From assembly GCA_003153575.1 (NCBI GenBank), contig PLZW01000001.1, positions 118,758 to 167,378 of the forward strand: 48,621 nt of DNA. The letters run 5' to 3'. This document shows, piece by piece, positions 4,250 through 19,444 of this stretch; position 1 is the first letter of the stretch; every line of letters begins with the position of its first letter. Under the pieces are notes generated by a model. It made no database searches, was not told where the DNA came from, and saw only the letters and a list, made by a program, of their open reading frames with translations. A program made the translations under genes and the position numbers. The DNA is from Acidimicrobiaceae bacterium. GTDB taxonomy: Bacteria > Actinomycetota > Acidimicrobiia > Acidimicrobiales > RAAP-2.

Positions 4250-6462
4250 GGGAGCACCTCCACGATGTTCGACAGCGCGGCGATCGGTGCGCGGAGGCCG
4301 GGTGGGGATGGCGCGCCGACCTGGGAAAGTGCTGGAGGCGGCAGTGTGGTGGTCGTCGTGGTCGTCGTGGTGGTCGTCGGATGGGTGGTGGTCGTGGTGG
4401 TCGGCGGATGGGTGGTGGTCGTGGTCGTCGGCTTCGGTCGGGTGGTGGGCGGCGGCTTCGGTCGGGTGGTGGGCGGCGGCTTCGGTCGGGTGGTGGGCGT
4501 CGGCCTCGGATGGGTGGTGGGCGTCGGCTTCGGGTGGGGCGTCACGGGCCCCACCGGCTTCGGGTGGGGCACGACCACGGGCTTGTGGTGCCGGGTCGGG
4601 GCGCTCTTCTCGATCCGCAGCACGAGCGCCGAGGAGTTCTTGTACACCACGTGGACGTACCCGGTCTTCAACAGGCGCGCCGTGAACGTGGTCAGCCAGT
4701 CGGGCGGGTAGCCGAGGTAGTCCCATCCCTCGTTGGCCTGGCTCCGCGTGAAGTAGATGTACGTGGGCTTGTGAGTCACCGGGAGGTGGTCCGCCAGCTC
4801 GGTCTGGCTGGCGGCAAGGAGGCCGCCGAACTCGACCAGTTTGTAGGCGCCGACCTTGGCGTAATAGAACGGCTCGTCCCGGTTGGTCACGTACACGACC
4901 GATCCGTCGGCTACGTGCACGTGGATCCAGGTGGCGGCGGCCAGGTCACCGGGGGAGATGGCCTCGAAGCTCTCGTTGCCGAACCTGTTGAGGGGGAACA
5001 GCACGAGGAGAAGGACGCCGACGCCGAGCAGGAACACGACCGACGCCTTCCTGAGCGGGGCGTAGTCGATGATGCTGGCCGTGAGCACCGCGGCGGGGGC
5101 CAGGCTGAACAGCAGGACCCGGAGCGCCACCTCACCGCCGTAGCTCACCGCCCCGGCCACGAACACGGGGGCCACGGCGACGACGACCATGGTCCACATG
5201 GTGCGTCCCCGGCGCCACAGCGCCCACCAGCCGACCATGGCCGCCAACCAGGTCAGTGCCGCCCCGAAGAGGCGGCTGTCCGTCACCAGGGTCCGGCCGA
5301 AGGACTTTCCCCCGAGGCGCGCCCCTACCGTCGAGTTGAGCGTGGACCCGATCTGGCCGGCGGACCCCAGGATCTTGGCCAGGTGGCCGGCCCAGTAGGT
5401 GTGCGCCTCCCACGAGAGCCACGCCCACACGAGCACCGCCGTGAACACCCACAGCATGCGGAGACTGGTGCGCCCGGTCAGGGCGAATCCGAAGAAGACG
5501 AGACACAGCGCGGCCGGGGTGATCTGGTGGGTAACGGCGGACGCCCCGAGGATCACCAGCAGCACGACGAGCAGGGCCACCCGGTACCCGGGGGTCGTGT
5601 CGGTCTCGGGCTGCTCGTTGGGGGTGGCGCCGTAGGGGAGCTGGAGGAGGTTGGTGGCGAACAGCTTGAGCCGCAACCACGACCGGGAGTCGATGATGGC
5701 CTGGACCGGCTTCGGAGATCGCCCACCGGCGGCGAAGACGCGGATGGCGATGGCCACCGCCGCCAGGAAGAGGAAGACGTTGATGCCCTGCGGGGAGAAG
5801 TAGTCCTGGTCGATCCAGTTACTGGCGAGGAAGATGGCCAGGACCGCCCACCGGGCCCGTGAGGTCCGCAGGCACGTGTCGGCGATCACCTTGAGCGGGA
5901 TCAGGTCGACGAGGTTGAGGCCGAGGGGACACCAGCGCAGGAACCACGTCGTGGACACCCCGATGGCCTTGGCCATCATGCCGGCGGCCGCGAACATGGC
6001 TGGCCAGGACATCCGCACGTCGAGGCGGGGCAGTGCCGTTCCGGTGCGGCCGATGTAGTCGCTGAACCCGGCCACGACGTAGGCCGCCGAGAACCGGGGC
6101 ACCGGCTCGGTGGCCGGGAGGGTCCCGTGGAGGATCAGGGCCAACGCGATGAGCGTCGGGATCATGATGATGGTGCGCGGCGACTCCCGGGACAGTTCGA
6201 GGACGATGCCCGCCGCAGCCAGGGCGACCCCCAGCCACCACAGGACGGAAAGCTGCGAGACGAGGCCGGACGCCGGCGCTGCGTAGGGATGGATGGAGGA
6301 GAGGGACACGCTCCAGGCGATGACGCCGGCGACCGCCAGCAGCAGGGGGAGCAGGCTCTTGAACCTCGAGCTCGGGCCGGTCGGGTGCAGGTCCGCGTCG
6401 CGACCCGCCAGGCCTCCGGGCGGCTGGTCCGCCATGACGTCGTACGTCGCTTCAGTGGTCAA
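4246..6462 (-). CDS. Large polytopic membrane protein, polymerase/GT-C-like, Thr/Pro tail
   Basis: A 738-residue protein with about 12 predicted membrane helices across residues 35-470, including ASNWIDQDYFSPQGINVF, a motif I associate with actinobacterial membrane proteins thought to polymerise or transfer glycans. A soluble region (about 500-610) follows, then a low-complexity tail from about 615 rich in Pro, Lys and Thr (repeats of PTTRPKPP, then long Thr runs). The frame start is a TTG at 6462; an in-frame ATG at 6435 is an alternative. It is the first gene of a leftward set, coupled by GTGA to the 120-aa membrane protein. The Thr/Pro tail looks like an extracellular spacer or a wall-embedded stalk. 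Function as a polysaccharide polymerase or a GT-C glycosyltransferase is inferred, not demonstrated. Confidence 0.72.
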   Translation of the reverse strand: MTTEATYDVMADQPPGGLAGRDADLHPTGPSSRFKSLLPLLLAVAGVIAWSVSLSSIHPYAAPASGLVSQLSVLWWLGVALAAAGIVLELSRESPRTIIMIPTLIALALILHGTLPATEPVPRFSAAYVVAGFSDYIGRTGTALPRLDVRMSWPAMFAAAGMMAKAIGVSTTWFLRWCPLGLNLVDLIPLKVIADTCLRTSRARWAVLAIFLASNWIDQDYFSPQGINVFLFLAAVAIAIRVFAAGGRSPKPVQAIIDSRSWLRLKLFATNLLQLPYGATPNEQPETDTTPGYRVALLVVLLVILGASAVTHQITPAALCLVFFGFALTGRTSLRMLWVFTAVLVWAWLSWEAHTYWAGHLAKILGSAGQIGSTLNSTVGARLGGKSFGRTLVTDSRLFGAALTWLAAMVGWWALWRRGRTMWTMVVVAVAPVFVAGAVSYGGEVALRVLLFSLAPAAVLTASIIDYAPLRKASVVFLLGVGVLLLVLFPLNRFGNESFEAISPGDLAAATWIHVHVADGSVVYVTNRDEPFYYAKVGAYKLVEFGGLLAASQTELADHLPVTHKPTYIYFTRSQANEGWDYLGYPPDWLTTFTARLLKTGYVHVVYKNSSALVLRIEKSAPTRHHKPVVVPHPKPVGPVTPHPKPTPTTHPRPTPTTRPKPPPTTRPKPPPTTRPKPTTTTTTHPPTTTTTTHPTTTTTTTTTTTLPPPALSQVGAPSPPGLRAPIAALSNIVEVLP

Positions 6463-7023: not shown

Positions 7024-7343
7024 CTTCCAGCGCGATCGAAAGTCGCGCCGCACACCGGATGACCTGAGCGGAACGACCGGTCCGCGTGCGTCACGCGGAC
7101 GTCACGCGGGGATCGACGGCATCGCGCACATGTGGGCCGGATACGCCTGTCGTCCCCGTTCTGGAAGTGCTCAGTAGTCACGTCGGCTGCTATCTTTGCG
7201 GGTGAGTTGCACGTTTCTCAGGTCAGGGTCGCGGGCCCCACCCGGACGTCTCGGACTGATCGCTTGGCCCCGTCCCGGTCGTGGTCTGGTTGCGGAATGG
7301 CGGCGAGGCACACCACGCAGGCAGGAACCGACTAGGAGGACTG
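7024..7343. other. 320-nt intergenic region
   Basis: Lies between the coiled-coil gene and the first sulfotransferase gene. It contains the perfect hairpin described separately at 7080-7100 and, near its right end, AGGAGG at 7334-7339 that sets the sulfotransferase start. Short open frames here lack ribosome binding sites and protein-like composition. I see no further RNA gene or repeat. Confidence 0.6.
7080..7100 (+). terminator. Hairpin terminator-like element
   Basis: Perfect 9-bp inverted repeat GTCCGCGTG / CACGCGGAC with a 3-nt loop (CGT), 56 nt after the stop codon at 7023. There is no T-tract, which is common for actinobacterial terminators, so it could also be a protein-binding dyad. 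A terminator fits the position best. Confidence 0.5.
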
Positions 7344-8249
7344 TTGATCTCGCGACCGCTGATAATTCTCGGGGCCCCCCGCTCGGGAACGACGATGATC
7401 TTCCAGGCCCTGTCCACCCACCCCGAGCTCTGGAGTCTGTACCGGGAAAGCCAGAACATCCTCAACCAGCACTTTCCCGTCCAGATGCTCCCGGGGCAGT
7501 CGGTACTGGTCACCGCTGAGGACATCGATGACGCTACGGCGGTCGCCATCGACCAGGAGTTCTTCGACGAAGTCGGCAACGCTGAGGCGTCGCTGAAGCT
7601 GTTCGGCCGCGGTGTCCCGCTGATCGCCCGCGTCCGATTGAGCAAGTTCCTCACCAAGCTCGGCAAGGACTTGAAGGTCCCGCCGATCCGCATGGTCGAG
7701 AAGACCCCGGACAACTGCTTCCGGATCAAGATGCTGCTCCGGGTCTTCCCGGACGCCCAGTTCGTCTACGTCGTCCGGGACCCGAGGGGCTCCATCGCAT
7801 CGATCCACAAGGGTTGGACCGAGGAGTCCCGATTCCAGCGGTTCGAGCTGCCGGCCGACTTCACCATCAAGGGGTACACCGGGAAGTCGTGGTGCTTCGG
7901 GCTGCCGCCCGGTTGGGAGGAGCTCGACGGTTCGACGGTCATGGAGATCTGTGCCCACCAGTGGCGCCTCTACAACGAGTACTGCCACCGTGATCTGCCC
8001 GAGGACGACCAGCGGACCCTCGTGGTCCGCTACGAGGAGATGTCCTCGGATCCGGGGCCGGTCCTCGACCAGGTGGCCCGCTTCGCCGACCTCGATCCCG
8101 CGCCGCTCGACCGCTACAAGGAGAAGCTCCCGGTCGTGAACACGTGGACGAAGCCCAGCTCGGACAAGTGGCGCAGGGTGGAAGAGGAGATCGGCGACGT
8201 GCTCCCGATCGTCTCGTCCGAGGCCGGGCGCCTCGGGTACCCCGTGTGA
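7344..8249 (+). CDS. PAPS-dependent sulfotransferase family protein
   Basis: Predicted sulfotransferase of 301 residues moving a sulfuryl group from PAPS to an alcohol or amine acceptor. The 5'-phosphosulfate loop is ILGAPRSGTTMIF near the N-terminus, and the 3'-phosphate motif is VVRDPRGSIASIHKGW in the middle. The start is taken as TTG at 7344 because AGGAGG lies at 7334-7339; the frame stays open back to 7281, but that extension starts without a ribosome binding site and adds 21 residues ahead of the P-loop strand. The next gene, also a sulfotransferase, begins 13 nt after the stop, so the two are co-transcribed. Acceptors could be a polysaccharide or a glycolipid; in this setting a surface glycan is likely. 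Confidence 0.85.
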   Translation: MISRPLIILGAPRSGTTMIFQALSTHPELWSLYRESQNILNQHFPVQMLPGQSVLVTAEDIDDATAVAIDQEFFDEVGNAEASLKLFGRGVPLIARVRLSKFLTKLGKDLKVPPIRMVEKTPDNCFRIKMLLRVFPDAQFVYVVRDPRGSIASIHKGWTEESRFQRFELPADFTIKGYTGKSWCFGLPPGWEELDGSTVMEICAHQWRLYNEYCHRDLPEDDQRTLVVRYEEMSSDPGPVLDQVARFADLDPAPLDRYKEKLPVVNTWTKPSSDKWRRVEEEIGDVLPIVSSEAGRLGYPV

Positions 8250-8262
8250 GCGTCGCGTCACC

Positions 8263-9363
8263 GTGAGACCGGACCGGACGAAAGTCCTGTACATCGGGGG
8301 CGAGGGGCGGTCGGGGTCGACCGTCCTGGAACGCCTGCTGGCCACCACACCCGGGACATGCGCCATCGGCGAGGCCAAGTACCTGTTCGCGCTGGGCATC
8401 GGGAGCAAGGAGCTCTGCGGGTGCGGCCGACCGGTGCCGGAGTGCGAGCTGTGGTCAGAAGTGGGCAACCGCCTGGTGGGCGGCTGGGACAGCGCGGAGG
8501 GAAAGGGGCTCGTCGACCTCTTCGCGGCGCTCGACCGACCCCGGAAGATCCCCGCCACCGTGGCCGGGCGGGGCGACCTGGTCCGCCGGGCCCGCGAGGT
8601 ACTGGCCGACCTGTACCCGCTGATCGCCGAGGTTTCCGGAGCGTCGGTCATCATCGACTCGTCGAAGCACCCCGCATGGGCCTACCTCCTGGCGGGGACG
8701 GAGACGGTCGATCTCCGGGTCGTCCATCTCGTGCGCCACCCCTCCGGCGTGGTCCAGTCGTGGAGCCGCCCCATCGAGCGACCTCAGGCCGGCGCCGGCA
8801 AGGGCGAGCAGCTGATGCCGGCGCACTCCGCGTTGGAGGTGACCGTCCGGTGGGACATCTTCAACGGGCTGTTCCACCGCCTGGCGCGACGGTCGGTCCC
8901 GACGGTGCTGGTCCGGTACGAGGACTACGTCGAGGACATCGGGGGCACGCTGCGGGCCTCGCTGGGCCTGGTCGGACTGGAGTGCGGCGGGACACCCGAG
9001 ACGATGACACGGGGCCATGGGATCGCGGGGAACCCCTCGCGCTTCGCCGATGACGGCCAGGCGATCATGGTCGACGACCGGTGGATCACCGAGTTGGGTC
9101 GGATCAAGCACACCCTGGTGTCCGCCGCCACCTGGCGCAAACGGTCGGCCTACGGCTACCGGTACCGCCGCTCCGAGCCCGTCGTCCCCCTGGTCCGCCA
9201 CGCCACCGGTCGAGCCGCAGGCACAGGGGATCGAGTAACCGGCGGTGTCACGGACAGCGACACCGAAGGCGGCAGCGGCACCGAAGGCGGCAGCGGCAGC
9301 GGCAGCGGCGACGATCCGGCGGTACGTCGGTCACGCGATCGAAGTGGCGTGGTCGACGACTGA
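8263..9363 (+). CDS. Second PAPS-dependent sulfotransferase family protein
   Basis: A 366-residue sulfotransferase-type protein only distantly like its upstream neighbour. The P-loop is YIGGEGRSGSTVLERLL at residues 10-26, followed by a Cys-rich segment (ELCGCGRPVPECELW) typical of a sub-branch of this family, and the 3'-phosphate motif VHLVRHPSGVVQSW. The last 50 residues are low complexity (GTEGGSGTEGGSGSGSG), encoded by an 18-bp direct repeat near 9258-9300, and are probably disordered. It starts with GTG at 8263, 13 nt after the previous stop. The pair may sulfate different positions of one glycan. It is convergent with the GT2 gene ending at 9452. Confidence 0.82.
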   Translation: MRPDRTKVLYIGGEGRSGSTVLERLLATTPGTCAIGEAKYLFALGIGSKELCGCGRPVPECELWSEVGNRLVGGWDSAEGKGLVDLFAALDRPRKIPATVAGRGDLVRRAREVLADLYPLIAEVSGASVIIDSSKHPAWAYLLAGTETVDLRVVHLVRHPSGVVQSWSRPIERPQAGAGKGEQLMPAHSALEVTVRWDIFNGLFHRLARRSVPTVLVRYEDYVEDIGGTLRASLGLVGLECGGTPETMTRGHGIAGNPSRFADDGQAIMVDDRWITELGRIKHTLVSAATWRKRSAYGYRYRRSEPVVPLVRHATGRAAGTGDRVTGGVTDSDTEGGSGTEGGSGSGSGDDPAVRRSRDRSGVVDD

Positions 9364-9451: not shown

Positions 9452-10399
9452 TCAGCTGGCCTCTTCGCAGGTCGACAGGACTGACCATGAGCTTCCCGAT
9501 TCGCGGGGGACTGCCGCATGCTGCATGGCGGCCTTGCGGGTACCACGCTTGCGCTCGATGTAGATGGTCCGGAACACCCGGAGGCCGTCGGAGAAGGCGT
9601 TGAGGTTGCTGGTGCCGTGCAGCCGGTTGCGCTCGAAGCTCGGCACCTCGAATACCCGCAGGCTCGCCTTGGCGATTCGGATATTGATCAGTGTCTCGAC
9701 TTCGAACCCGTCCCCCCACAACATCATCGATTCGTCGGTGCCCGGGCGGCACTCGGGATCGAGGGCGATGGCATCGAGGCAGCCTCGCCTGAAGGCGTTG
9801 TAGCCGTAACACAGGTCGGTGTACCGGGTCCCGTACAGGGCGTTGACGATCTTATTGAGCCAGAAGTTGCCGGACTGGCGCAGTCGGCTGATATCGCTGC
9901 TCCCCGCACCGGGCATGAAGCGGGAGCCCTTGGCGAAGTCGGCCCCTTGGCGGAGTGCGTCGACGAAGCGGGGGATCTCGGCCGGGTCAGTGGATCCGTC
10001 AGCGTCGATCATCACGATGAAGTCACCAGTGGTGGCCGCGAACCCGCATGCCAGCGCGTTCCCCTTGCCCTTGCGCGTCTGCCCGACGACCTTGATGCCG
10101 GGGTAGAAGGCCCGGGCCACCTGGACCGTCTCGTCGGTGGAGTTGCCGTCGACCAGAATCACTTCGTGTAGGCCGGCGGGAAGGGCCTCCAGCACATGGG
10201 GGAGGTTCCGGGCCTCGTTCTTGGCCGGGATCACCACACTGACGGTGGGGGGCTTGCGCACATGGTGCCGCGCACCGGTTGAGGAAGGGATCTGGCGCAC
10301 GACGGCGATCCGGTGGGTCCTGCGCTCGCCGTCCAGGGACAGGTGGCCGGACTCGTCCTGGGCCTCGGGTTCGAACTCTTCGGACTTGAGGACCGTCAT
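9452..10399 (-). CDS. GT2 glycosyltransferase, polyprenyl-phosphate type
   Basis: A 315-residue soluble GT-A enzyme resembling dolichyl-/polyprenyl-phosphate mannosyl or glucosyl transferases. The core starts at TVSVVIPAKNEARNL (about residue 53), followed by EVILVDGNSTDET, the metal-binding VMIDADGS, GSRFMPGAGSSD and a conserved C-terminal RLHGTSNLNAFSDG region. No membrane helices follow, so it is the short DPM1-like form. The ATG at 10399 has GAAAGGTG seven bases upstream. The product would be a lipid-linked sugar used by GT-C enzymes at the outer face, which fits the large membrane protein encoded at 4246-6462. It is a single leftward gene, convergent with the sulfotransferases. Confidence 0.87.
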   Translation of the reverse strand: MTVLKSEEFEPEAQDESGHLSLDGERRTHRIAVVRQIPSSTGARHHVRKPPTVSVVIPAKNEARNLPHVLEALPAGLHEVILVDGNSTDETVQVARAFYPGIKVVGQTRKGKGNALACGFAATTGDFIVMIDADGSTDPAEIPRFVDALRQGADFAKGSRFMPGAGSSDISRLRQSGNFWLNKIVNALYGTRYTDLCYGYNAFRRGCLDAIALDPECRPGTDESMMLWGDGFEVETLINIRIAKASLRVFEVPSFERNRLHGTSNLNAFSDGLRVFRTIYIERKRGTRKAAMQHAAVPRESGSSWSVLSTCEEAS

Positions 10400-11680: not shown

Positions 11681-11785
11681 GTGACCAGTGTTGGCACGGG
11701 CGGCGGAAGTAGCGGCACGCATCTCGGGCGTGCGGCGCCGTACCGCCGGTCCGAGCGCAGGGGAGTGAAGGAGATCAGTCGTTGA
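11681..11785 (+). CDS. Possible 34-aa leader ORF coupled to LuxR regulator
   Basis: A short frame from GTG 11681 to TGA 11783-11785 encodes 34 residues rich in Gly, Ser and Arg (begins VTSVGTGGGSSG). It has AGGAG at 11670-11674, six bases before the start, and its stop overlaps the TTG start of the next gene as TTGA. The next three junctions in this operon are GTGA, ATGA and GTGA, so the same coupling style argues that this frame is translated. No homology is recognised. It may serve only to deliver ribosomes to the regulator start. Confidence 0.4.
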   Translation: MTSVGTGGGSSGTHLGRAAPYRRSERRGVKEISR

Positions 11786-12474
11786 CTCGCAATCGAGGCC
11801 GGCTCCCCACCGTTCTGATCCAGGACCGCTCCCGAATGTACCGGGAGAGCCTGCGCGTGCTCTTCGAGAGCAACTCCCTGTCGGTGGCGGAGGCCATGGC
11901 CTCGGCCGATGCGCTCGAAGGTGCTTGCCGTGCCCAGACCGTGGACGCCGTGGTGTTCGAAGCCGCAGGGGTGGTCGAAGGGGTGCCCGACCTGGTCGAG
12001 CGCCTGAGGGCCTGTGATGCCAGCACCCGACTCGTGGCGACCTATCCGTCCGAGCTGCGCGGCGTCGCGCTCGAGGGTGCACTCAATGTGCATCGCAGTG
12101 CCCCTGGTGCCTACTTCCTTGCCGCCGTATCCGGTGACGCGGGACCGCCGACCGGAGAGGACAAGGGGGAGAACCAGGGTGAGGACCCGGTCGCCGGTCG
12201 GGAGGGGGTGACCCTGTGGGATCCGGGCGCGGAGGTGCTGACCAAGCGGGAGATGCAGGTCCTGGCCCTGATCAGCGGCGGATTGACCACCCAGCAGATC
12301 GCCGAACGCCTCGGGATCAGTGCGAAGACCGTGGAGAGCCGCCGGCAGGGGCTCTTCGCCAAGCTCGGCGTCCAGAGCCAGTCCCACGCCGTCTCGGTGG
12401 CCATCCGGGCGGGCTTCCTCGGCAACCGTCCCGATGTCGCCTTGGCTCAGGGCCGGCCTCAGGGCCAACGGTGA
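11782..12474 (+). CDS. LuxR-family regulator with degenerate receiver (1)
   Basis: A 230-residue DNA-binding regulator. Residues 8-115 look like a response-regulator receiver (PTVLIQDRSRMYRESLRVLF), but the usual phosphoacceptor Asp position (DAVVFEAAG) carries Glu60, a residue that can mimic phospho-Asp. A charged linker (118-148) leads to a clear LuxR/GerE helix-turn-helix (150-210: LTKREMQVLALISGGLTTQ...). The TTG start at 11782 has GAAGGAG eight bases upstream. Its stop overlaps the next regulator start as GTGA. No histidine kinase gene is in the window, so control probably does not depend on phosphorelay. Likely regulator of the exporter and RiPP genes. Confidence 0.82.
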   Translation: MTRNRGRLPTVLIQDRSRMYRESLRVLFESNSLSVAEAMASADALEGACRAQTVDAVVFEAAGVVEGVPDLVERLRACDASTRLVATYPSELRGVALEGALNVHRSAPGAYFLAAVSGDAGPPTGEDKGENQGEDPVAGREGVTLWDPGAEVLTKREMQVLALISGGLTTQQIAERLGISAKTVESRRQGLFAKLGVQSQSHAVSVAIRAGFLGNRPDVALAQGRPQGQR

Positions 12475-13277
12475 CCCCGACGTCTGCGTCCCGCCCTCCC
12501 GCACCGTACCGGCGGCCCTTCTTCCGGGTCCGGCGGTACACGTCGGAACTCCCCAAGGTCGTCTGCCTCTGTGACTCGAGTGTGATCCCCGAGGCCCTGC
12601 ACGTGGTACTCGAAGGCCGGGCGGGAATCGTGGCCACGACCAGCTCCGGCAACGCGGCCGTGGCCCTCAGCGAGCTCCTGGTGCCGGACGTGGTCGTGGT
12701 CAGCGAGATGCTGGCGGACGGTGTCGCCGAGAGCTTCGTCCCTGCCATCCTGCGGGTGGGGAGTCGGGTGCTCATGATTTGCGAGCCACGCGAAACGGCC
12801 CGACTCGTCGAACTGGTGGCGCAGGGCGTCACGGGACTGGTGGGCACCGACCAGACGCCCCAGGAGTTGGCCGAGGCGGTCCTCGAGCTGGCAGCGGGCG
12901 GAGCGGAACTGCCGCCCGACGTGGTGGCCGCGGTGGTCGCTGACTGGCGCAGAGGCTGGCGCCGGGGGGCGGGGGACACCAGGAGCGCCGAGCTCACGGC
13001 CCGGGAGCGGGACGTCCTGGACGCCATCTCCGACGGTCTCAGCGCCAAGGCCGTGGCCCACCACCTGGGGATTGCCGTCAAGACCGTCGAGCACCATAAG
13101 TCGAGGATCTTCGACAAGCTCGGAGTCCGGTCACAAGCCGAGGCCGTTGCGGTCGCGCTCGGCACCGCCGCCGAGCCCGGCGAGCCCGGCGAGGCCGACA
13201 CGGGGGACGCCGACACGGGGGACACCGACACGGGGGACACCGGGGACGGCGTCGCCAGCGGTCGGACGGCGTCATGA
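12471..13277 (+). CDS. LuxR-family regulator with degenerate receiver (2)
   Basis: A 268-residue paralogue of the preceding regulator. The receiver-like domain (about 28-145, KVVCLCDSSVIPEAL) has Ser78 (VVVVSEM) where the phosphoacceptor Asp should be. The LuxR-type HTH spans about 173-232 (LTARERDVLDAISDGLSAK..., TVEHHKSRIFDKLGVRSQ). The C-terminal tail repeats DTGDA/DTGDT, encoded by a 15-bp direct repeat near 13193-13242. The GTG start at 12471 overlaps the upstream stop; an open frame continuing upstream to 12216 is a shadow of the first regulator. Its own stop overlaps the ABC ATPase start as ATGA. Two coupled regulators may act as a heterodimer. Confidence 0.82.
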   Translation: MTPTSASRPPAPYRRPFFRVRRYTSELPKVVCLCDSSVIPEALHVVLEGRAGIVATTSSGNAAVALSELLVPDVVVVSEMLADGVAESFVPAILRVGSRVLMICEPRETARLVELVAQGVTGLVGTDQTPQELAEAVLELAAGGAELPPDVVAAVVADWRRGWRRGAGDTRSAELTARERDVLDAISDGLSAKAVAHHLGIAVKTVEHHKSRIFDKLGVRSQAEAVAVALGTAAEPGEPGEADTGDADTGDTDTGDTGDGVASGRTAS

Positions 13278-14176
13278 TCCGGCGCCCGCCGAGGAAGCGG
13301 AAGTACGCAGCGGTGCCGACGGGCTACGGGATCGAGGTGCGATCCATGACCAAGGCACTACGGGGACGGCTCATTCTCGACCGTGTCGATCTCGAGGTCC
13401 GGCGCGGGACGCTGGCGGTGCTGGAGGGATCGAACGGAGCTGGGAAGACGACGCTGATCCGGTCACTGGCCACTGTGGTGGCACCGGACAGCGGTACCGT
13501 CCTGGTGAACGGCTACGACGTGGTGCGCCAGAGTCTCGACGTCCGTCGGTCGATCGGGGTGAGCTTCGCCAACGAGCGGAGCCTGTATTGGCGCATCAAC
13601 GCCTTCGAGAATCTCGAGCTGTTCGGGAAGATCGCCGGCCTGGTGAAGCCGGATATCGCCGAGCGGTCGGTCGATCTCCTGGAGCAGCTCCGGCTCATGG
13701 ATGTCTCCACGCTCCAGGTGGCTCGCCTGTCCACCGGCCAGCGGCAACGGCTGATGGTCGCCAGGGCCTTCCTCACCGATCCGGCCGTGGTGCTGCTCGA
13801 CGAACCATTCCGGGGCATCGACGGGGAAGGGCTGCACTCGATCATCGACCTGGTGACCGACCGGGTCGGCCATGGCACTACGGCGCTGATCGTGGCACCG
13901 CTGATCGACGCCATCGTGCCTGCCGCGGACAGGACGTACCGGATCCAGGACGGGCGGATATGGCCGACGGGCGCCGACCGGTCGGCCGGGGATCAGGGTG
14001 ACCACGGGAATCCAGGTGACCAGGGGAACCCAAATGACCAGGGGAACCCAGGTGACGAAGGGAACCCAGGTGACGAAGGGAACCAGGGCGCCGACGGAAC
14101 TGCAGCGACCACGGACGCCGTCGAGCCGGACGGACGATTGCCCCAGACAGGCGGTCGCGTGGGGGAGTATCCGTGA
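13274..14176 (+). CDS. ABC transporter ATP-binding protein, collagen-like tail
   Basis: A 300-residue nucleotide-binding subunit for the ABC-2 permease that follows. Walker A is GSNGAGKTT (52-60), the signature LSTGQRQRL (152-160) and Walker B VVLLDEP (172-178). The Q-loop region reads ANERSLYWR, as in other ABC-2 exporters. The switch histidine normally found after Walker B is not seen: the strand reads TTALIVAPLIDA (about 202-213), with Pro where His is expected. After residue 238 comes a tail of five hexapeptides of the type GDQGNP, encoded by an 18-bp tandem repeat. ATGA and GTGA overlaps bind it to the regulator and permease genes. It probably drives export of the RiPP or immunity to it. 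Confidence 0.87.
   Translation: MIRRPPRKRKYAAVPTGYGIEVRSMTKALRGRLILDRVDLEVRRGTLAVLEGSNGAGKTTLIRSLATVVAPDSGTVLVNGYDVVRQSLDVRRSIGVSFANERSLYWRINAFENLELFGKIAGLVKPDIAERSVDLLEQLRLMDVSTLQVARLSTGQRQRLMVARAFLTDPAVVLLDEPFRGIDGEGLHSIIDLVTDRVGHGTTALIVAPLIDAIVPAADRTYRIQDGRIWPTGADRSAGDQGDHGNPGDQGNPNDQGNPGDEGNPGDEGNQGADGTAATTDAVEPDGRLPQTGGRVGEYP
13997..14086 (+). repeat. 18-bp tandem repeat x5 inside the ABC ATPase gene
   Basis: Five copies of a unit like GGTGACCAGGGGAACCCA at 18-bp spacing, encoding the hexapeptide series GDxGNP. Units 2-5 are nearly identical at DNA level, suggesting recent expansion. Confidence 0.9.
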
Positions 14177-14973
14177 CCTTCCTGCGCATCCTGGGGGCGA
14201 CGGCCCAGAAGGACTTCCGGACGGCGATCTCCTACCGGGTCGGCTTCGTCACCAGCATCATCGCCACGTTCTGGGGCCTGTTCGCCTTCCGATTCGTGTC
14301 CAAGCTCGTCAACTCCGGTCAGTTCAGCTCCAGCTCGACGAGTTATTTCAAGTACACCGTGGTCGGGCTGCTGTTCGCCTCGATCCTCGAGCCCACGGCG
14401 GTCGGCACCTCGGTGTCGGCCCGCAACGACCAGGTCCAGGGAACGCTCGAGTACCTGTCCACTCAGCCCGTCCGCCGGGCGTACATCGGGTTCAGCTGGT
14501 CGGCTTTCAATCTGCTGCAGTCGTTGTTGGTGGCGGCCATCGTCGTGCTGTTGACCATCCCGCTCGGATTCAGCGTCTCCGACGTCAATGTTCCCGTGGT
14601 CCTCGTCGTCATCCCCCTCACCATCCTGATCTTCGGTGCGGTGGGCAACATGGGCGCCTCACTGGTCATCCTGCTCCAGCAGGGCGTCCCCCTCGTGGCC
14701 GGGCTCCTCAGCATCATCGGGATCATCAGCGGCACGCTCTTTCCGGTCACCGTGTTCCCACCGTGGCTCCAGTTCTTCGCCCACCTGTCGCCGCTCACCT
14801 ACGCGCTCGACGCCCTGCGCTCGGCCACGCTGGCCGACCAGCCGCCGACGAACTATGCACTGGACTTCGTCGTGCTGGTCGGATTCGCCGTGGTCCTCCT
14901 GCCGCTCTCCGGGCACCTGCTCGAGCGATCCTTCCGGATCGCCCAGCGGCGGGGGTCCCTGAGCACGTTTTGA
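14173..14973 (+). CDS. ABC-2 type transporter permease
   Basis: A 266-residue integral membrane protein with about six helices and the ABC-2 layout: an amphipathic N-terminus (FLRILGATAQKDFRTAISYR), first helix GFVTSIIATFWGLFAF, an EYLSTQPVRRAY coupling segment, and the conserved late motif SGTLFPVTVFPPWLQFFAHLSPLTYALDALR. It starts with GTG at 14173, overlapping the ATPase stop as GTGA. With the ATPase it forms an exporter. The next gene begins 72 nt later and encodes a PqqD-like protein, so peptide export or self-protection is the likely role. Substrate identity is inferred from position. Confidence 0.87.
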   Translation: MTFLRILGATAQKDFRTAISYRVGFVTSIIATFWGLFAFRFVSKLVNSGQFSSSSTSYFKYTVVGLLFASILEPTAVGTSVSARNDQVQGTLEYLSTQPVRRAYIGFSWSAFNLLQSLLVAAIVVLLTIPLGFSVSDVNVPVVLVVIPLTILIFGAVGNMGASLVILLQQGVPLVAGLLSIIGIISGTLFPVTVFPPWLQFFAHLSPLTYALDALRSATLADQPPTNYALDFVVLVGFAVVLLPLSGHLLERSFRIAQRRGSLSTF

Positions 14974-15045
14974 ACAGGATGGGGTGCTGATTCGTATGGT
15001 TATCGAGGGTTACATAACGCGCGCGGCGGCGGATACAGTAGGAGG

Positions 15046-15366
15046 ATGCAATTGTTTGAGTCGACGCACGAGCCGGACGTTCCCCTTCCCATGACGCAGG
15101 GACCGATGCGCCTGCGCGTCGACCAGGTGGCCTGGCGGGACGTCGGCGACGAGCTGATCGTGCTGGAGTTGGCCACGTCCACCTACCTCACGCTCAACGG
15201 CTCGGCCAAGCAGCTCTGGCTCGGTCTGGTGTCGGGCGCCACGGCCGAGGAGCTCGTCGGGTCGCTGGTGGCGGCCTACGGGATCTCGGTCGACCAGGCC
15301 GGTGCCGACACCGAGTCCTTCCTGGCGGCGCTGCTCGAGCGGAAGCTGATCGAGCCGGACGACTGA
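15046..15366 (+). CDS. PqqD-like RiPP recognition element protein
   Basis: A protein of about 106 residues with the winged-helix PqqD/B1 fold: RVDQVAWRDVGDELIVLEL, STYLTLNGSAKQLWLGL, ATAEELVGSLVAAYGI, then SFLAALLERKLIEP. Such RRE domains bind the precursor leader and present it to modifying enzymes. Start choice is interesting: AGGAGG (15040-15045) directly abuts the ATG at 15046, leaving no spacer, whereas the in-frame TTG at 15052 has a 6-nt spacer and may be the true start. It lies 184 nt upstream of the precursor gene. A second RRE is fused to the peptidase at 15700, so the locus encodes two leader-binding domains. Confidence 0.83.
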   Translation: MQLFESTHEPDVPLPMTQGPMRLRVDQVAWRDVGDELIVLELATSTYLTLNGSAKQLWLGLVSGATAEELVGSLVAAYGISVDQAGADTESFLAALLERKLIEPDD

Positions 15367-15466
15367 GTCGCCGGTGGCTGGCTCCCGGTTCTGCGCACCC
15401 GCGCTCACGTGGAGTGGTGGCCTTGCTGCGAAGAGCGTCCACAGGAGAAGGTCGAACCACCCCTTA

Positions 15467-15481
15467 GGGGGATCATCCCCC
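15467..15481. promoter_or_regulatory. Palindromic operator candidate upstream of precursor gene
   Basis: Perfect dyad GGGGGAT-C-ATCCCCC, 10 nt upstream of a candidate -35 element and about 70 nt before the precursor start. Outer arms ACCACC and GGTGGT flank it. The position suits binding of an activator such as the LuxR-type proteins of this locus. A stem-loop role in RNA is the alternative. Confidence 0.5.
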
Positions 15482-15491
15482 CTCGGAGCGG

Positions 15492-15520
15492 TGGTCAAGG
15501 ACAACCCGGTGGCTTACAGT
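15492..15520 (+). promoter_or_regulatory. Putative promoter of the precursor gene
   Basis: Candidate -35 TGGTCA (15492-15497) and -10 TACAGT (15515-15520) with a 17-bp spacer, giving a 5' leader of about 25 nt that contains AAAGGGG (15539-15545) before the ATG at 15551. The match to sigma-70/HrdB consensus is moderate. Confidence 0.4.
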
Positions 15521-15550
15521 GACAACACTCAACGAGGGAAAGGGGCAGAA

Positions 15551-15688
15551 ATGTCAAACAACTACGAGGCTCCGGAAATCACCGTCCTGGGCGAGCTGAC
15601 CGACATGACCCAGACCAGTACCAAGCCGGGGGTCTACTTCGACTTCGGTAACTGCAACCAGGGATCGACCAGCCAGGGAACCAGCTGA
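15551..15688 (+). CDS. Lasso-like RiPP precursor peptide (45 aa)
   Basis: A 45-residue peptide with a lasso-type leader: Y5-x-x-P8-x-I10-x-x-x-G14-x-L16 matches the YxxPxLxxxG motif read by B1/RRE proteins. After residue 18 the only acidic residue is Asp31. If a macrolactam forms, the core would have to begin at S23, T24 or K25 for a 9-, 8- or 7-residue ring; a start at T24 places Thr22 at leader position -2, the usual rule, and gives a 22-residue core with a 14-residue tail. Gly27 as residue 1 would give only a 5-residue ring. The core holds one Cys (C35) and ends in Ser45, the kind of residue phosphorylated by lasso kinases. AAAGGGG lies upstream of the ATG. The next gene encodes the matching peptidase. 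Confidence 0.85.
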   Translation: MSNNYEAPEITVLGELTDMTQTSTKPGVYFDFGNCNQGSTSQGTS

Positions 15689-15758
15689 ACCGAAGTTCCT
15701 TGACCGGCCTGGCCGGCAAGCTGTTTGTGAAACCAGGCTCCCGCAAGGGGGCCTGGTT
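15642..15758 (+). promoter_or_regulatory. Stem-loops at the precursor/peptidase junction
   Basis: Two inverted repeats: ACTTCGGT (15642-15649) with ACCGAAGT (15689-15696) across the end of the precursor gene, and AACCAGGC (15731-15738) with GCCTGGTT (15751-15758) just inside the peptidase frame. Such structures could favour precursor over enzyme expression. Neither is followed by a T-tract. Confidence 0.4.
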
Positions 15759-16620
15759 CGCGCCTGACGTCATACTCTCGCACGACGCGTCCGGGGCGAG
15801 GATCCTCCTCCACCTCCCCTCGGGTACCTACCTCCGGCTCGACGAGTCGGCCGCCCGCATCGTCGACCTCTTGAACGAGGACCCCGACCCCGGTCATGCC
15901 GCGGCGCGGCTCGCCTCCGACTTCGACATCTCCCACGACCAGGCGTTGGGCGATGTCCGCACCGTCATCGCGACCGTCCAAGGACGTGCCGCGGCCCGCA
16001 CGCACCGTGGGCGCCTCCCCACCCCCTCCGGGATGGTGGCCGTCGGCCGGTCGTGGCGGCGTCTTCCCCGCGCAGGACGATGGGCGACCGCCGAGGCGGC
16101 CATGGTGATCATCGTGATCGAGGCGGGCCTGGCGGTGTCCAGCCTGCCGAGACTGGCCACGTTGATGGGCGTCCCGTTGGCCACCGATCAAGAGGCCGCG
16201 GCGGTCGAGACCGACGATTCCGAGGCCATCGCCGCGCTCGGCGAGCGTGAGCGACGGGCCATGTGGGCGGTGGACTGGGTACTGTCCCGCTGGCTCTTCG
16301 ACGAGACCTGCCTGCGTCGGTCTCTGGCCTTCGGTTGGTTCATCCGTCGGCGCAAGCCGGTGCTGCGACTCGGGATGATCGATGACGGAGGCGCAATCGC
16401 CCATGCCTGGGTCGAGGCCGGGGGCAAAGCGTTCGACACCACCGCGGTGACGGGGACGTTCGCCGTGGGCACCGGTCCGACGGCGCAGGACCCGCCCGCC
16501 GGGTCCCCAGGAGACCCCAGATCAACGGAAGGCCAGGTGGGTCCGGGAACCAATCCGGCCACCAACGGCAACGTACCGACAGCCAACGGCAACGTGCCGA
16601 CAGAAGGTGGAAACGCCTAG
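15700..16620 (+). CDS. Fused lasso B1-B2: RRE plus McjB-type leader peptidase
   Basis: A 306-residue protein joining a PqqD-like RRE (about 20-95, PDVILSHDASGARILLHL, GTYLRLDESAARIV) to a transglutaminase-like leader peptidase of the lasso B2/McjB family (about 130-255). The catalytic set is visible: Cys204 in ETCLRRSLAFGW, His235 in AIAHAWVEAGG and Asp246 in KAFDTT, with spacing close to that of McjB. The C-terminal 50 residues are disordered-looking with repeats of NGNVPT. The start is TTG 15700, 11 nt after the precursor stop; GTG 15727 is an alternative. It should cleave the leader. In classical systems an asparagine-synthetase-like cyclase works with it, but none is encoded in this window. 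Confidence 0.87.
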   Translation: MTGLAGKLFVKPGSRKGAWFAPDVILSHDASGARILLHLPSGTYLRLDESAARIVDLLNEDPDPGHAAARLASDFDISHDQALGDVRTVIATVQGRAAARTHRGRLPTPSGMVAVGRSWRRLPRAGRWATAEAAMVIIVIEAGLAVSSLPRLATLMGVPLATDQEAAAVETDDSEAIAALGERERRAMWAVDWVLSRWLFDETCLRRSLAFGWFIRRRKPVLRLGMIDDGGAIAHAWVEAGGKAFDTTAVTGTFAVGTGPTAQDPPAGSPGDPRSTEGQVGPGTNPATNGNVPTANGNVPTEGGNA

Positions 16621-17659
16621 TATCGCCCGGGTGAGCAACGGGGCATCGGTGGAGGTCTACGAATGCTCCGGCCTCCGTTTGGCATCGCAACTGCCTCTCT
16701 CGGCCCCGCTGTCGATCGATGGCGACCTCGCCTCGGCCGACGTCACCATCGCGATCGGTGAGGAGCGGACGCCGCCTTCCGAGCGCCCGTCCGCCGATGT
16801 GATCGCCGAGCTCATCCTGGACGGGTATCCCTTCTACACGTTCTGCCGGGTTGGCGACGACATCGTCGGGCGCATGGGCGGCATCGGCGACTTCGAGATC
16901 AGCGGCGACCTGACGAAGGTCGTGTGCCACCCCTACGTGGGCGGCCGGCACGAGGTGTTGCCCATCGTCATCCCCGGGACCATCACCGCCTTCCTCATGA
17001 ACATGGCCGGCCAGTTCGTGCTGCACGGGAGCGCCGTCGACCTCGGGGGTCGGTGCCTGGCCTTCGTAGGTCAGTCCGGTCAGGGCAAGTCGACCATGGC
17101 GGCCATGTTCTGCGCGCTGGGTGCAGCCTTGGTGACCGACGACGTCCTGCCCCTCGAGTTCGGGACGGGGCGCAACGGTTCCGGTCCTGTCTTCTGTCTC
17201 CCGGGAGGGAGCGAGATCAGGCTGCGCGAGGGGTCGGCATCGCTGATCGACCGGTTCGTGACCGATGTCGCCGTTCGTGACACCGCGGACCAGCGGCGCG
17301 CCGTGTCACCCGGATCCACCGGCCGTGACCGGGTCCCCCTGTCCGCCATCGTGGTGCCCCATCCCGACCGTCTGCATCCCCAGGTGACCGCCCGACGACT
17401 GGGCGCCGGCGAGGCGAGCCTCGTGCTCGGTCGCTACCAGCGCATCGAGGGCTGGCGGTCCACCGAGCACCTGCGCCGGCAGTTCGAAGCAGTCGGACAG
17501 GTGGTCGTCGCGGTGCCGGTGTTCGACGTTTCCGTACCGTGGGGCCCGCCGTTCGCCGACGACCTCGTGACGCAGGTGCTGGAGGCCTGCGGGCTCACCG
17601 ACCTGCTCGGTCGCCTGGCGGAATCCGACGGGACCCGCCAGATGGAGACCGGCGTCTGA
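16607..17659 (+). CDS. HPr-kinase-like RiPP (lasso) peptide kinase
   Basis: A 350-residue protein with the C-terminal HPr kinase fold: QFVLHGSAVDLGGRC, P-loop FVGQSGQGKSTMAA (153-166) and ALVTDDVLPL (174-183). Homologues sit in lasso clusters (for example the paeninodin kinase) and phosphorylate the C-terminal Ser of the precursor. The precursor here ends in Ser45, which fits. The first 110 residues correspond to the variable N-terminal region of this family. It starts at GTG 16607, overlapping the end of the peptidase gene by 14 nt, with GTG 16631 as an alternative. The overlap supports one transcript for precursor, peptidase and kinase. Confidence 0.83.
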   Translation: METPSIARVSNGASVEVYECSGLRLASQLPLSAPLSIDGDLASADVTIAIGEERTPPSERPSADVIAELILDGYPFYTFCRVGDDIVGRMGGIGDFEISGDLTKVVCHPYVGGRHEVLPIVIPGTITAFLMNMAGQFVLHGSAVDLGGRCLAFVGQSGQGKSTMAAMFCALGAALVTDDVLPLEFGTGRNGSGPVFCLPGGSEIRLREGSASLIDRFVTDVAVRDTADQRRAVSPGSTGRDRVPLSAIVVPHPDRLHPQVTARRLGAGEASLVLGRYQRIEGWRSTEHLRRQFEAVGQVVVAVPVFDVSVPWGPPFADDLVTQVLEACGLTDLLGRLAESDGTRQMETGV

Positions 17660-17848: not shown

Positions 17849-17899
17849 TATGTGCTCGGTGTCGTCGGACTACCGACGGATCTCAGGAAGCAGGGAACC

Positions 17900-19444
17900 A
17901 TGAAGCGAACAGCAGTGAAGGCGCGGCACCTGGCATCGGTATGTGCCGTGGGGGCACTCGCCGTCGGGTTGGTCTCGATGATGGGCGCAGGCCCGGCCGT
18001 CGCCGGCCCGACGTCGGCACCGGATCAGCCGTCGGTCATCCACGGCAACTCGATCGGCGGCCATGCGGCCCACGCCACCTCCCACATCGGCTTCGGCCTG
18101 CCGACCGGCAACGGCTTCCTCTCGGTCTTCCAGACGATCCCGGCCAAGACACTGTCGGTCACCGTCGGAGCGGGGACGCCCTTCACGCTGTCCCAGGGCG
18201 ACTTCAACTTCGGCGACATCGCGCCCAACACGTACCCCGTCACGGCGAAGACCGGCCCGGTCGTCACCGCCAGCGGCAGCATCGCCATCCCGACCGGCGG
18301 GGACGTCACCTCCCTCGTCTACCTGGGAGCGACCGGCACGCCTACGGTCGGCGGCTTCCCGAACAACCTGGCCTCGGCACCCGCCGGTCAGTCCCGCATG
18401 GTGTTCCGCAACACGGGCGAGGGCGGCCCTGTGGACGTCCTGGTCAACGGCGTCGTCGAGGCCACGTCACTCGTCAATGACGGCACGTCGTCCGTCCAGG
18501 TCAACCTGCCGGGTGAGCCCCTCCAGATCATTGTGAAGAACCACGCCACGCAGACCACCGTGGCCCGGTTGGCCAACGCCGTCCTCACCCCCGGTCTCTT
18601 GGTCAACGAGTTCTTCATCGGTAGCCAGACGAATGGGACCGGCTCCCTCCTGAGCAACGCCATCCCGCTCGAGAGCGGCTACCGGCTCTTCGCCTCCGAC
18701 GGCGGCGTCTTCACGTTCCCGGCGAGCCTGCCCTACTTCGGCTCGGAGGGCGGTAAGCCCCTCAACCAGCCGATCGTGGGTGCGGCGACCGATCCGCTCG
18801 GACTGGGCTACTGGATGGTGGCCTCCGATGGCGGCATCTTCACCTTCGGTGACACCGGGTTCTTCGGCTCCATGGGCGCCCAGCACCTCAACGAGCCGAT
18901 CGTGGGCATGGCGGCCACGCCGGACGGCGACGGCTACTGGCTCGTGGCGTCCGACGGCGGCATCTTCGCCTTCGGCGACGCCGTTTTCCAGGGCTCCATG
19001 GGCGCCCAACACCTCAACAAGCCCATCGTGGGCATGGCGGCCACACCGGACGGTAAAGGCTACTGGCTCGTCGCCTCCGACGGCGGCATGTTCTCCTTCG
19101 GCGACGCCGTTTTCCAGGGCTCCATGGGCGGTCAGCACCTCAACCAGCCGGTCGTGGGCATGGCGTCCACAGCCGACGGCGGCGGCTACTGGCTCGTGGC
19201 GTCCGACGGCGGTATGTTCTCGTTCGGCGACGCCGTTTTCTTCAACTCCATGGGCGGCCAGCCCTTGGCCAAGCCGATCGTGGGCATGATGTCGAGCCCC
19301 GACTCGCTGGGCTACTGGCTGGTGGCTTCCGACGGTGGGGTCTTCTCCTTCGGCGATGCACATTTCATGGGCTCGACCGGGAACATCGCCCTCAACAAGC
19401 CCATCGTGGCCGGCAACTCGTCGGGGACCCTGCTGGTCGGGTAG
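17900..19444 (+). CDS. Secreted DUF4397-like protein with GYW repeats
   Basis: A 514-residue exported protein. The Sec signal peptide ends at GPAVAG (cleavage near residue 34). Residues about 50-250 look like a DUF4397-type beta domain (MVFRNTGEGGPVDVLVNGV). From about 265 there are at least six copies of a 45-residue repeat with the core GYWLVASDGGIFAFGDA and linkers such as NKPIVGMAATPDG, likely a beta-propeller or beta-solenoid. Related repeats end the protein encoded at 22906. ATG 17900 follows GGAAGCAGGGA and is preferred over the upstream frame opening at 17852, because it places a proper signal peptide at the N-terminus. A surface adhesion or wall role is likely; no catalytic motif is seen. 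Confidence 0.82.
   Translation: MKRTAVKARHLASVCAVGALAVGLVSMMGAGPAVAGPTSAPDQPSVIHGNSIGGHAAHATSHIGFGLPTGNGFLSVFQTIPAKTLSVTVGAGTPFTLSQGDFNFGDIAPNTYPVTAKTGPVVTASGSIAIPTGGDVTSLVYLGATGTPTVGGFPNNLASAPAGQSRMVFRNTGEGGPVDVLVNGVVEATSLVNDGTSSVQVNLPGEPLQIIVKNHATQTTVARLANAVLTPGLLVNEFFIGSQTNGTGSLLSNAIPLESGYRLFASDGGVFTFPASLPYFGSEGGKPLNQPIVGAATDPLGLGYWMVASDGGIFTFGDTGFFGSMGAQHLNEPIVGMAATPDGDGYWLVASDGGIFAFGDAVFQGSMGAQHLNKPIVGMAATPDGKGYWLVASDGGMFSFGDAVFQGSMGGQHLNQPVVGMASTADGGGYWLVASDGGMFSFGDAVFFNSMGGQPLAKPIVGMMSSPDSLGYWLVASDGGVFSFGDAHFMGSTGNIALNKPIVAGNSSGTLLVG

Follow-up and report, generated by a model that had tools for sequence, protein, structure and literature searches.

Which enzyme closes the ring when a lasso-type gene cluster has no cyclase of its own? 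The question is raised by a stretch of 48,621 nucleotides (the window; positions 118758-167378 of contig C15, which has 383,929 bases) from an Acidimicrobiaceae metagenome-assembled genome (MAG; 2.98 Mb, 43 contigs, 76% complete). Eight genes lie on its + strand between 11782 and 17659: two LuxR regulators, an ABC ATPase and permease, a PqqD protein, a precursor peptide, a peptidase of the B2 type fused to a recognition element for ribosomally synthesized and post-translationally modified peptides (RiPPs; the element is abbreviated RRE), and an HPrK-like kinase. A preliminary description had listed these genes on one strand, and all eight are confirmed. It had left two options: a cyclase acting in trans, or a variant RiPP made without ring closure. 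We consider it probable that the cluster is part of a split, kinase-equipped lasso-type RiPP pathway, in which the gene for the ring-closing enzyme, a short cyclase, lies 31.4 kb upstream.

A candidate short cyclase is encoded upstream of the cluster

Characterised lasso cyclases consist of an N-terminal glutaminase-like domain and a C-terminal synthetase domain. A search of the genome for Asn_synthase (PF00733) yielded five matches: asnB, three short matches and one protein of 402 aa (C15:101723-102931). None of the five falls within the window (0/5), as the preliminary description had said, and the genome-wide check that it had proposed provides a candidate cyclase outside the locus; the reading that the genome has none was rejected. 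The 402-aa protein contains PF00733 only (49 bits) and has no glutaminase-like domain; of the two domains of a full-length cyclase, the synthetase part alone was found. It keeps FSGGRDSS, SGEGGDE and the C-terminal lysine that is invariant in the family alignment, and is a predicted ATP-dependent cyclase of the Asn_synthase type with its motifs intact. The family aligns solely with columns 188-554 of full-length cyclases, and its members have about 350-440 residues. The size of roughly 600 aa that had been expected does not apply to them, and because of that expectation the cyclase was missed.

The gene shares contig and strand with the cluster. It ends 31.4 kb upstream of the precursor, with other genes in between, and it precedes the start of the window by 17 kb. 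A profile of short cyclases has this gene as its sole match in the surrounding 103.6 kb (C15:83758-187378), and the same segment holds one B2, one significant HPrK-like match and one small open reading frame (ORF) with the strict leader motif, the precursor itself. The remaining PF00733 matches were set aside: asnB (C39:258836) is an ordinary glutamine-dependent asparagine synthase (TIGR01536 471.3 bits, cut-off 267.1), and C15:253898, C39:211647 and C19:41299 (22-31.5 bits) were regarded as other PP-loop enzymes on account of their short matches (59-63 model positions).

Cyclase and cluster occur together in related genomes

Protein searches with the cyclase and RRE-B2 at E 0.001 found a cyclase match in 9 and an RRE-B2 match in 8 of 172 family genomes, with both in 7 (Fisher 3.6e-10). 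G015 and G034 match RRE-B2 by its RRE part alone; with a B2 profile, both prove to have a peptidase gene close by. Cyclase and RRE-B2 matches lie within 4 kb of each other in G010, G015, G025, G034, G062 and G086, and are separated in the window's own genome only (1/7). Of the two options in the preliminary description, action in trans is supported by the short Asn_synthase-domain protein and by its homologues near precursors in related loci, and the same observations give the variant without ring closure no support. G007 carries B2, PqqD, precursor and a partial kinase; its contig, of 5.3 kb, breaks off within the kinase gene and so gives no verdict on the cyclase. By protein search G004 and G032 have a cyclase without B2; a B2 profile gives a match close by in G032, and the G004 contig ends in the cyclase. 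A leader-motif precursor is found in all these cyclase- or B2-bearing genomes except G004. The RRE-B2 fusion as query found no relative in the genome contig collection.

Among whole loci, L068 (PMHH01000144.1, Acidimicrobiaceae MAG palsa_693) is the nearest; it contains ABC, kinase, fused LuxR pair, PqqD, cyclase, precursor, second kinase and an Exo_endo_phos-like gene. The window genome's own cyclase is likewise followed by an Exo_endo_phos gene, 2.8 kb downstream and with two other ORFs between. In a ranking of matches over 183 loci from other genomes, with duplicates and controls counted in, L068 came first for the cyclase, the precursor and the kinase, and second after G025 for both LuxR regulators. 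A tree of 35 places three cyclases in one clade with 100/100 support: the window genome's own, that of L068, and the second one of G025, which is LuxR-linked and whose row covers 30% of the columns. A protein search for B2 gave no match in the L068 genome; just upstream of L068 is a B2-like ORF of 121 aa with a sub-threshold PF13471 score (22.9 bits, cut-off 26), placed beside the ABC gene through an ORF common to both stretches.

The cluster and its predicted product

The eight genes of the cluster are as follows.

11782..12474, + strand, LuxR-type regulator 1 (PF00196 GerE 63.2 bits)
12429..13277, start uncertain, + strand, LuxR-type regulator 2 (PF00196 59.7 bits; 44% to L017, 42% to L068)
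13274..14176, + strand, ABC-2 exporter ATPase (PF00005 96.9 bits)
14173..14973, + strand, ABC-2 exporter permease (PF01061 61.6 bits)
15046..15366, + strand, PqqD-type RRE (B1-like), 106 aa (PF05402 48.0 bits, cut-off 23.4)
15551..15688, + strand, precursor, 45 aa (leader motif; similarity to the L068 precursor)
15700..16620, start uncertain, frame open from 15652, + strand, fused RRE and B2 leader peptidase (NF033537 56.3 bits)
16607..17659, + strand, HPrK-like precursor kinase, 350 aa (lasso-kinase motif, residues 140-179)

Homologues of the two regulators adjoin in G025 (L017) and are fused in L068. The RRE (B1) function is represented twice, by the PF05402 protein alone and by a PF05402 domain (38.2 bits, cut-off 23.4) at the N-terminus of RRE-B2, and this RRE part matches TbiB1 (5v1u, E 0.00085) and TfuB1 (6jx3, E 0.007). 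RRE-B2 exceeds the cut-offs of the lasso B2 model NF033537 (33) and of Transglut_core3 (39.1 bits, cut-off 26). Two of the catalytic residues named in the preliminary description, C204 and H235, do not vary among the 7 B2 sequences aligned (the window's is one of them); Asp246 is not conserved.

The precursor, MSNNYEAPEITVLGELTDMTQTSTKPGVYFDFGNCNQGSTSQGTS, carries the leader MSNNYEAPEITVLGELTDMTQTS, which contains the motif YxxPx[LI]xxxG much as first described, and scores below the NCBIfam cut-offs (lasso_cyano 19.2 of 33). We infer a 23-aa leader and a 22-aa core, T1KPGVYFD8...GTS22, with serine at the C-terminus. If the core begins at Thr24, T is at -2 and the acid is D8; under the usual leader spacing (T six residues past the leader G, cleavage two residues further) the acid is D10. 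The L068 precursor, MTENYEAPTVTVLGTVSDLTQ-GKPGVWFDF..., has T(-2), G1 and D8, and its GKPGVWFDF corresponds to TKPGVYFDF of the window precursor, which has two extra residues (TS) before it.

The HPrK-like protein is below the Pfam cut-off (PF07475 22.2 of 33.3) and has an H-G-G-G-K-S-D-D motif at residues 140-179 (H140), with spacing exactly as published. The motif is reported for lasso kinases, and its spacing for BsfK (PMC10368454). The strict form occurs in 2/9 kinases tested and a relaxed form in 52/74 loci with a kinase match >60 bits; in the kinase next to the L068 precursor (48% to the window kinase) Asn replaces the middle Gly. The Ser that PadeK is reported to phosphorylate is the C-terminal one of its precursor, and for BsfK it is Ser3 (PMC9266682, PMC10368454). 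The kinase motif and the C-terminal Ser support phosphorylation of the window peptide, probably at that Ser; several other Ser/Thr are present.

The genes and their homologies, the cyclase's intact active-site motifs, and joint occurrence and adjacency in relatives are observed directly; from them we infer the following pathway. The RREs would bind the YxxPxIxxxG leader, the kinase would phosphorylate the core, most likely at the C-terminal Ser, and B2 would cleave after Ser23 to expose Thr1. The short cyclase would then adenylate Asp8, and attack by Thr1 would give an 8-residue macrolactam with a 14-residue tail, for export by the ABC pair. On the best reading the product would be a Thr1-Asp8 macrolactam with a probably phosphorylated C-terminal Ser.

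Instead of a lasso, the product could be a macrolactam that is larger or unthreaded, with a T1-Asp10 ring as the usual spacing would give; this is rather unlikely, and is compatible with a split pathway. In the wider family described below, 28/95 precursors with T at the usual place have no acid at core positions 7-9, several have their first at 10-13, and some 11-residue cores have Glu9 and a 2-residue tail. The alignment of the L068 core GKPGVWFD (T(-2), G1, D8) with TKPGVYFD of the window argues against the larger ring here.

Separation of the cyclase from the cluster

The Exo_endo_phos gene on the cyclase side and a glycosyltransferase on the cluster side (window 9452-10399) are neighbours in G004 and G013 and are about 21 kb apart here; because they adjoin in two congeners, we regard both sides of the gap as one region. 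An aldo/keto reductase and SDR pair found downstream of the cluster recurs in G001, G002, G009 and G012, in stretches with no match to B2, kinase or cyclase. The cluster thus appears to occupy a region that is variable in the genus, and expansion or rearrangement there would therefore be the simplest cause of the split. The glycosyltransferase of this variable region is preceded by a sulfotransferase (7281-8249; PF13469 82 bits) and a second sulfotransferase-like gene (8263-9363; recognized by eye, no NCBIfam match). Beyond the cluster, 17852-19444 encodes a protein with repeated units of the 'GYWLVASDGGIFxFGD' kind; similar DNA occurs at many places in genus genomes, among the matches listed.

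Several points weigh against the split lasso-type pathway as we describe it. The cyclase lies outside the operon, and its co-expression with the cluster is hypothetical. None of the lasso-type NCBIfam models matches the cyclase; the asparagine synthase model alone does so, and weakly (22.8 of 267.1 bits). PqqD, B2 and the ABC pair have better matches at loci other than L068, and the top rank of L068 for the cyclase partly reflects selection, because the locus was found with the cyclase. The usual spacing places the acid at core 10, and the Asp8 reading requires a leader longer by 2; Asp246, the third residue of the proposed B2 triad, varies among the aligned sequences. The source is an incomplete (76%) MAG.

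The locus could be decaying after a rearrangement split it, with its product no longer made. The split order was seen in this one alone of the seven family genomes with both genes, and the intervening region varies in the genus; all reading frames are open, and the active-site motifs of cyclase and kinase are intact, and we judge decay improbable. A linear or otherwise modified phosphopeptide without a ring, the upstream protein having another role, would fit the 31.4 kb of other genes and the lack of a lasso-type model match, and is harder still to accept: no second strict-motif precursor lies within the 103.6 kb, cyclase and cluster are close together in the six other genomes with both, and cyclase, precursor and kinase have one common nearest locus. 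An assembly artefact is very unlikely, even in a MAG, given the two genes that flank the gap here and adjoin in two congeners, and the length of the contig.

A short-cyclase family across Actinomycetota

A profile of 20 cyclases found 141 relatives in the genome contig collection, and the 80 best were analysed further. Judged from their record titles, 79 of these are from Actinomycetota and one is from Gemmatimonadetes; they include Acidimicrobiaceae MAGs, Jiangella, Nocardioides, Tessaracoccus, Blastococcus, Georgenia, Isoptericola and Occultella. Within set distances, 79/80 have a precursor-like ORF, 73 an HPrK-like gene, 70 PqqD and 46 B2, and 45 have all four. Near the cyclases, 546 kb contain 93 small ORFs that carry the strict motif; 621 kb at a greater distance contain 8. 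Asp or Glu stands at core positions 7-9 in 67/95 precursors with T at the usual place, compared with 28.4 for shuffled cores (SD 4.2, maximum 42, 2000 shuffles), and 66/96 precursor-like ORFs of these loci end in Ser. In an order sample, 20/397 genomes match the cyclase at E 0.001, the own genome and weak matches included.

L069, L070 and L077 (on the contigs of L048, L049 and L053) have, beside a short cyclase, 11-residue cores (TIVIVAQGETS and near variants) with T(-2), Glu9 and a 2-residue tail that looks too short for threading; these are possibly simple phosphorylated macrolactams. In L116 and L119-L121 (Oceanitalea, Georgenia), L085 and L101 (Blastococcus), L111 and L122 (Isoptericola), and L015, L016, L017 and L033, the usual spacing puts the first acid beyond position 6 at 10-13, and such cores may form larger rings or have a shifted cleavage site. 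Near a short cyclase, PqqD and an HPrK-like gene, L098 has seven tiny precursor-like ORFs in tandem (4531-5191, - strand; cores of about 10-13 residues). L018 (5689-9497) has PqqD, B2 and an HPrK-like gene, followed by ORFs that by eye resemble a nucleotidyltransferase and an acetyltransferase, and shows no short-cyclase match within its 16 kb stretch.

The window system shares with the lasso peptide pathway (A, B1, B2, C, D) the leader motif, RRE, B2 family, cyclase synthetase domain and exporter; it differs in that its cyclase is encoded at a distance of 31 kb and has no glutaminase-like domain at the N-terminus, and in the extra RRE fused to B2. With the phosphorylated paeninodin, ThcoK and BsfK pathways (PMC9266682, PMC10368454) it shares an HPrK-like kinase with the same motif, and its precursor ends in Ser like PadeA, whereas BsfA ends in Asp; in contrast to them it is found in Actinomycetota, has a short cyclase and has no nucleotidyltransferase among its eight genes. 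The sole lasso-type model matched by short cyclases is NF033561 (albusnodin/ikarugamycin macrolactam cyclase), hit by 6/7 scanned, the window genome's not among them, with scores of 23.6-49.5 bits (cut-off 300); in the 4 full-length loci that have PqqD and a precursor, no HPrK-like match lies within about 5 kb. Beta-lactam synthetase, carbapenam synthetase and TsnB9 have the synthetase-half fold of the short cyclase; their aligned part begins at residue 126-232, and what precedes it has no counterpart in the short cyclase.

In the open-access literature, which leaves most subscription journals uncovered, we found no description of a cyclase without the glutaminase domain; the family may still be described. 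Tentatively, there may be a large branch of actinobacterial lasso-type pathways with a minimal, glutaminase-free cyclase and a precursor kinase, part of which (the 11-residue cores with a 2-residue tail and the cores with an acid at 10-13) would make unthreaded or larger phosphorylated macrolactams outside the lasso definition.

Implications

The window pathway is ordinary in its logic; what is unusual is a cyclase that consists of the synthetase half alone and, in this genome, a cyclase gene that lies apart from the cluster. It is the short-cyclase family that gives the locus its interest. A seeming exception, a lasso cluster that has no cyclase, is removed and replaced by a testable rule: in Actinomycetota, a synthetase-half cyclase tends to accompany an HPrK-like kinase. 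Genome mining with a size filter of about 600 aa, or with a search limited to the cluster, can overlook such pathways. If the short cyclase is active, it would offer a smaller enzyme for making macrolactams, and the glutaminase-like domain of lasso cyclases would be dispensable, which bears on the purpose of that domain.
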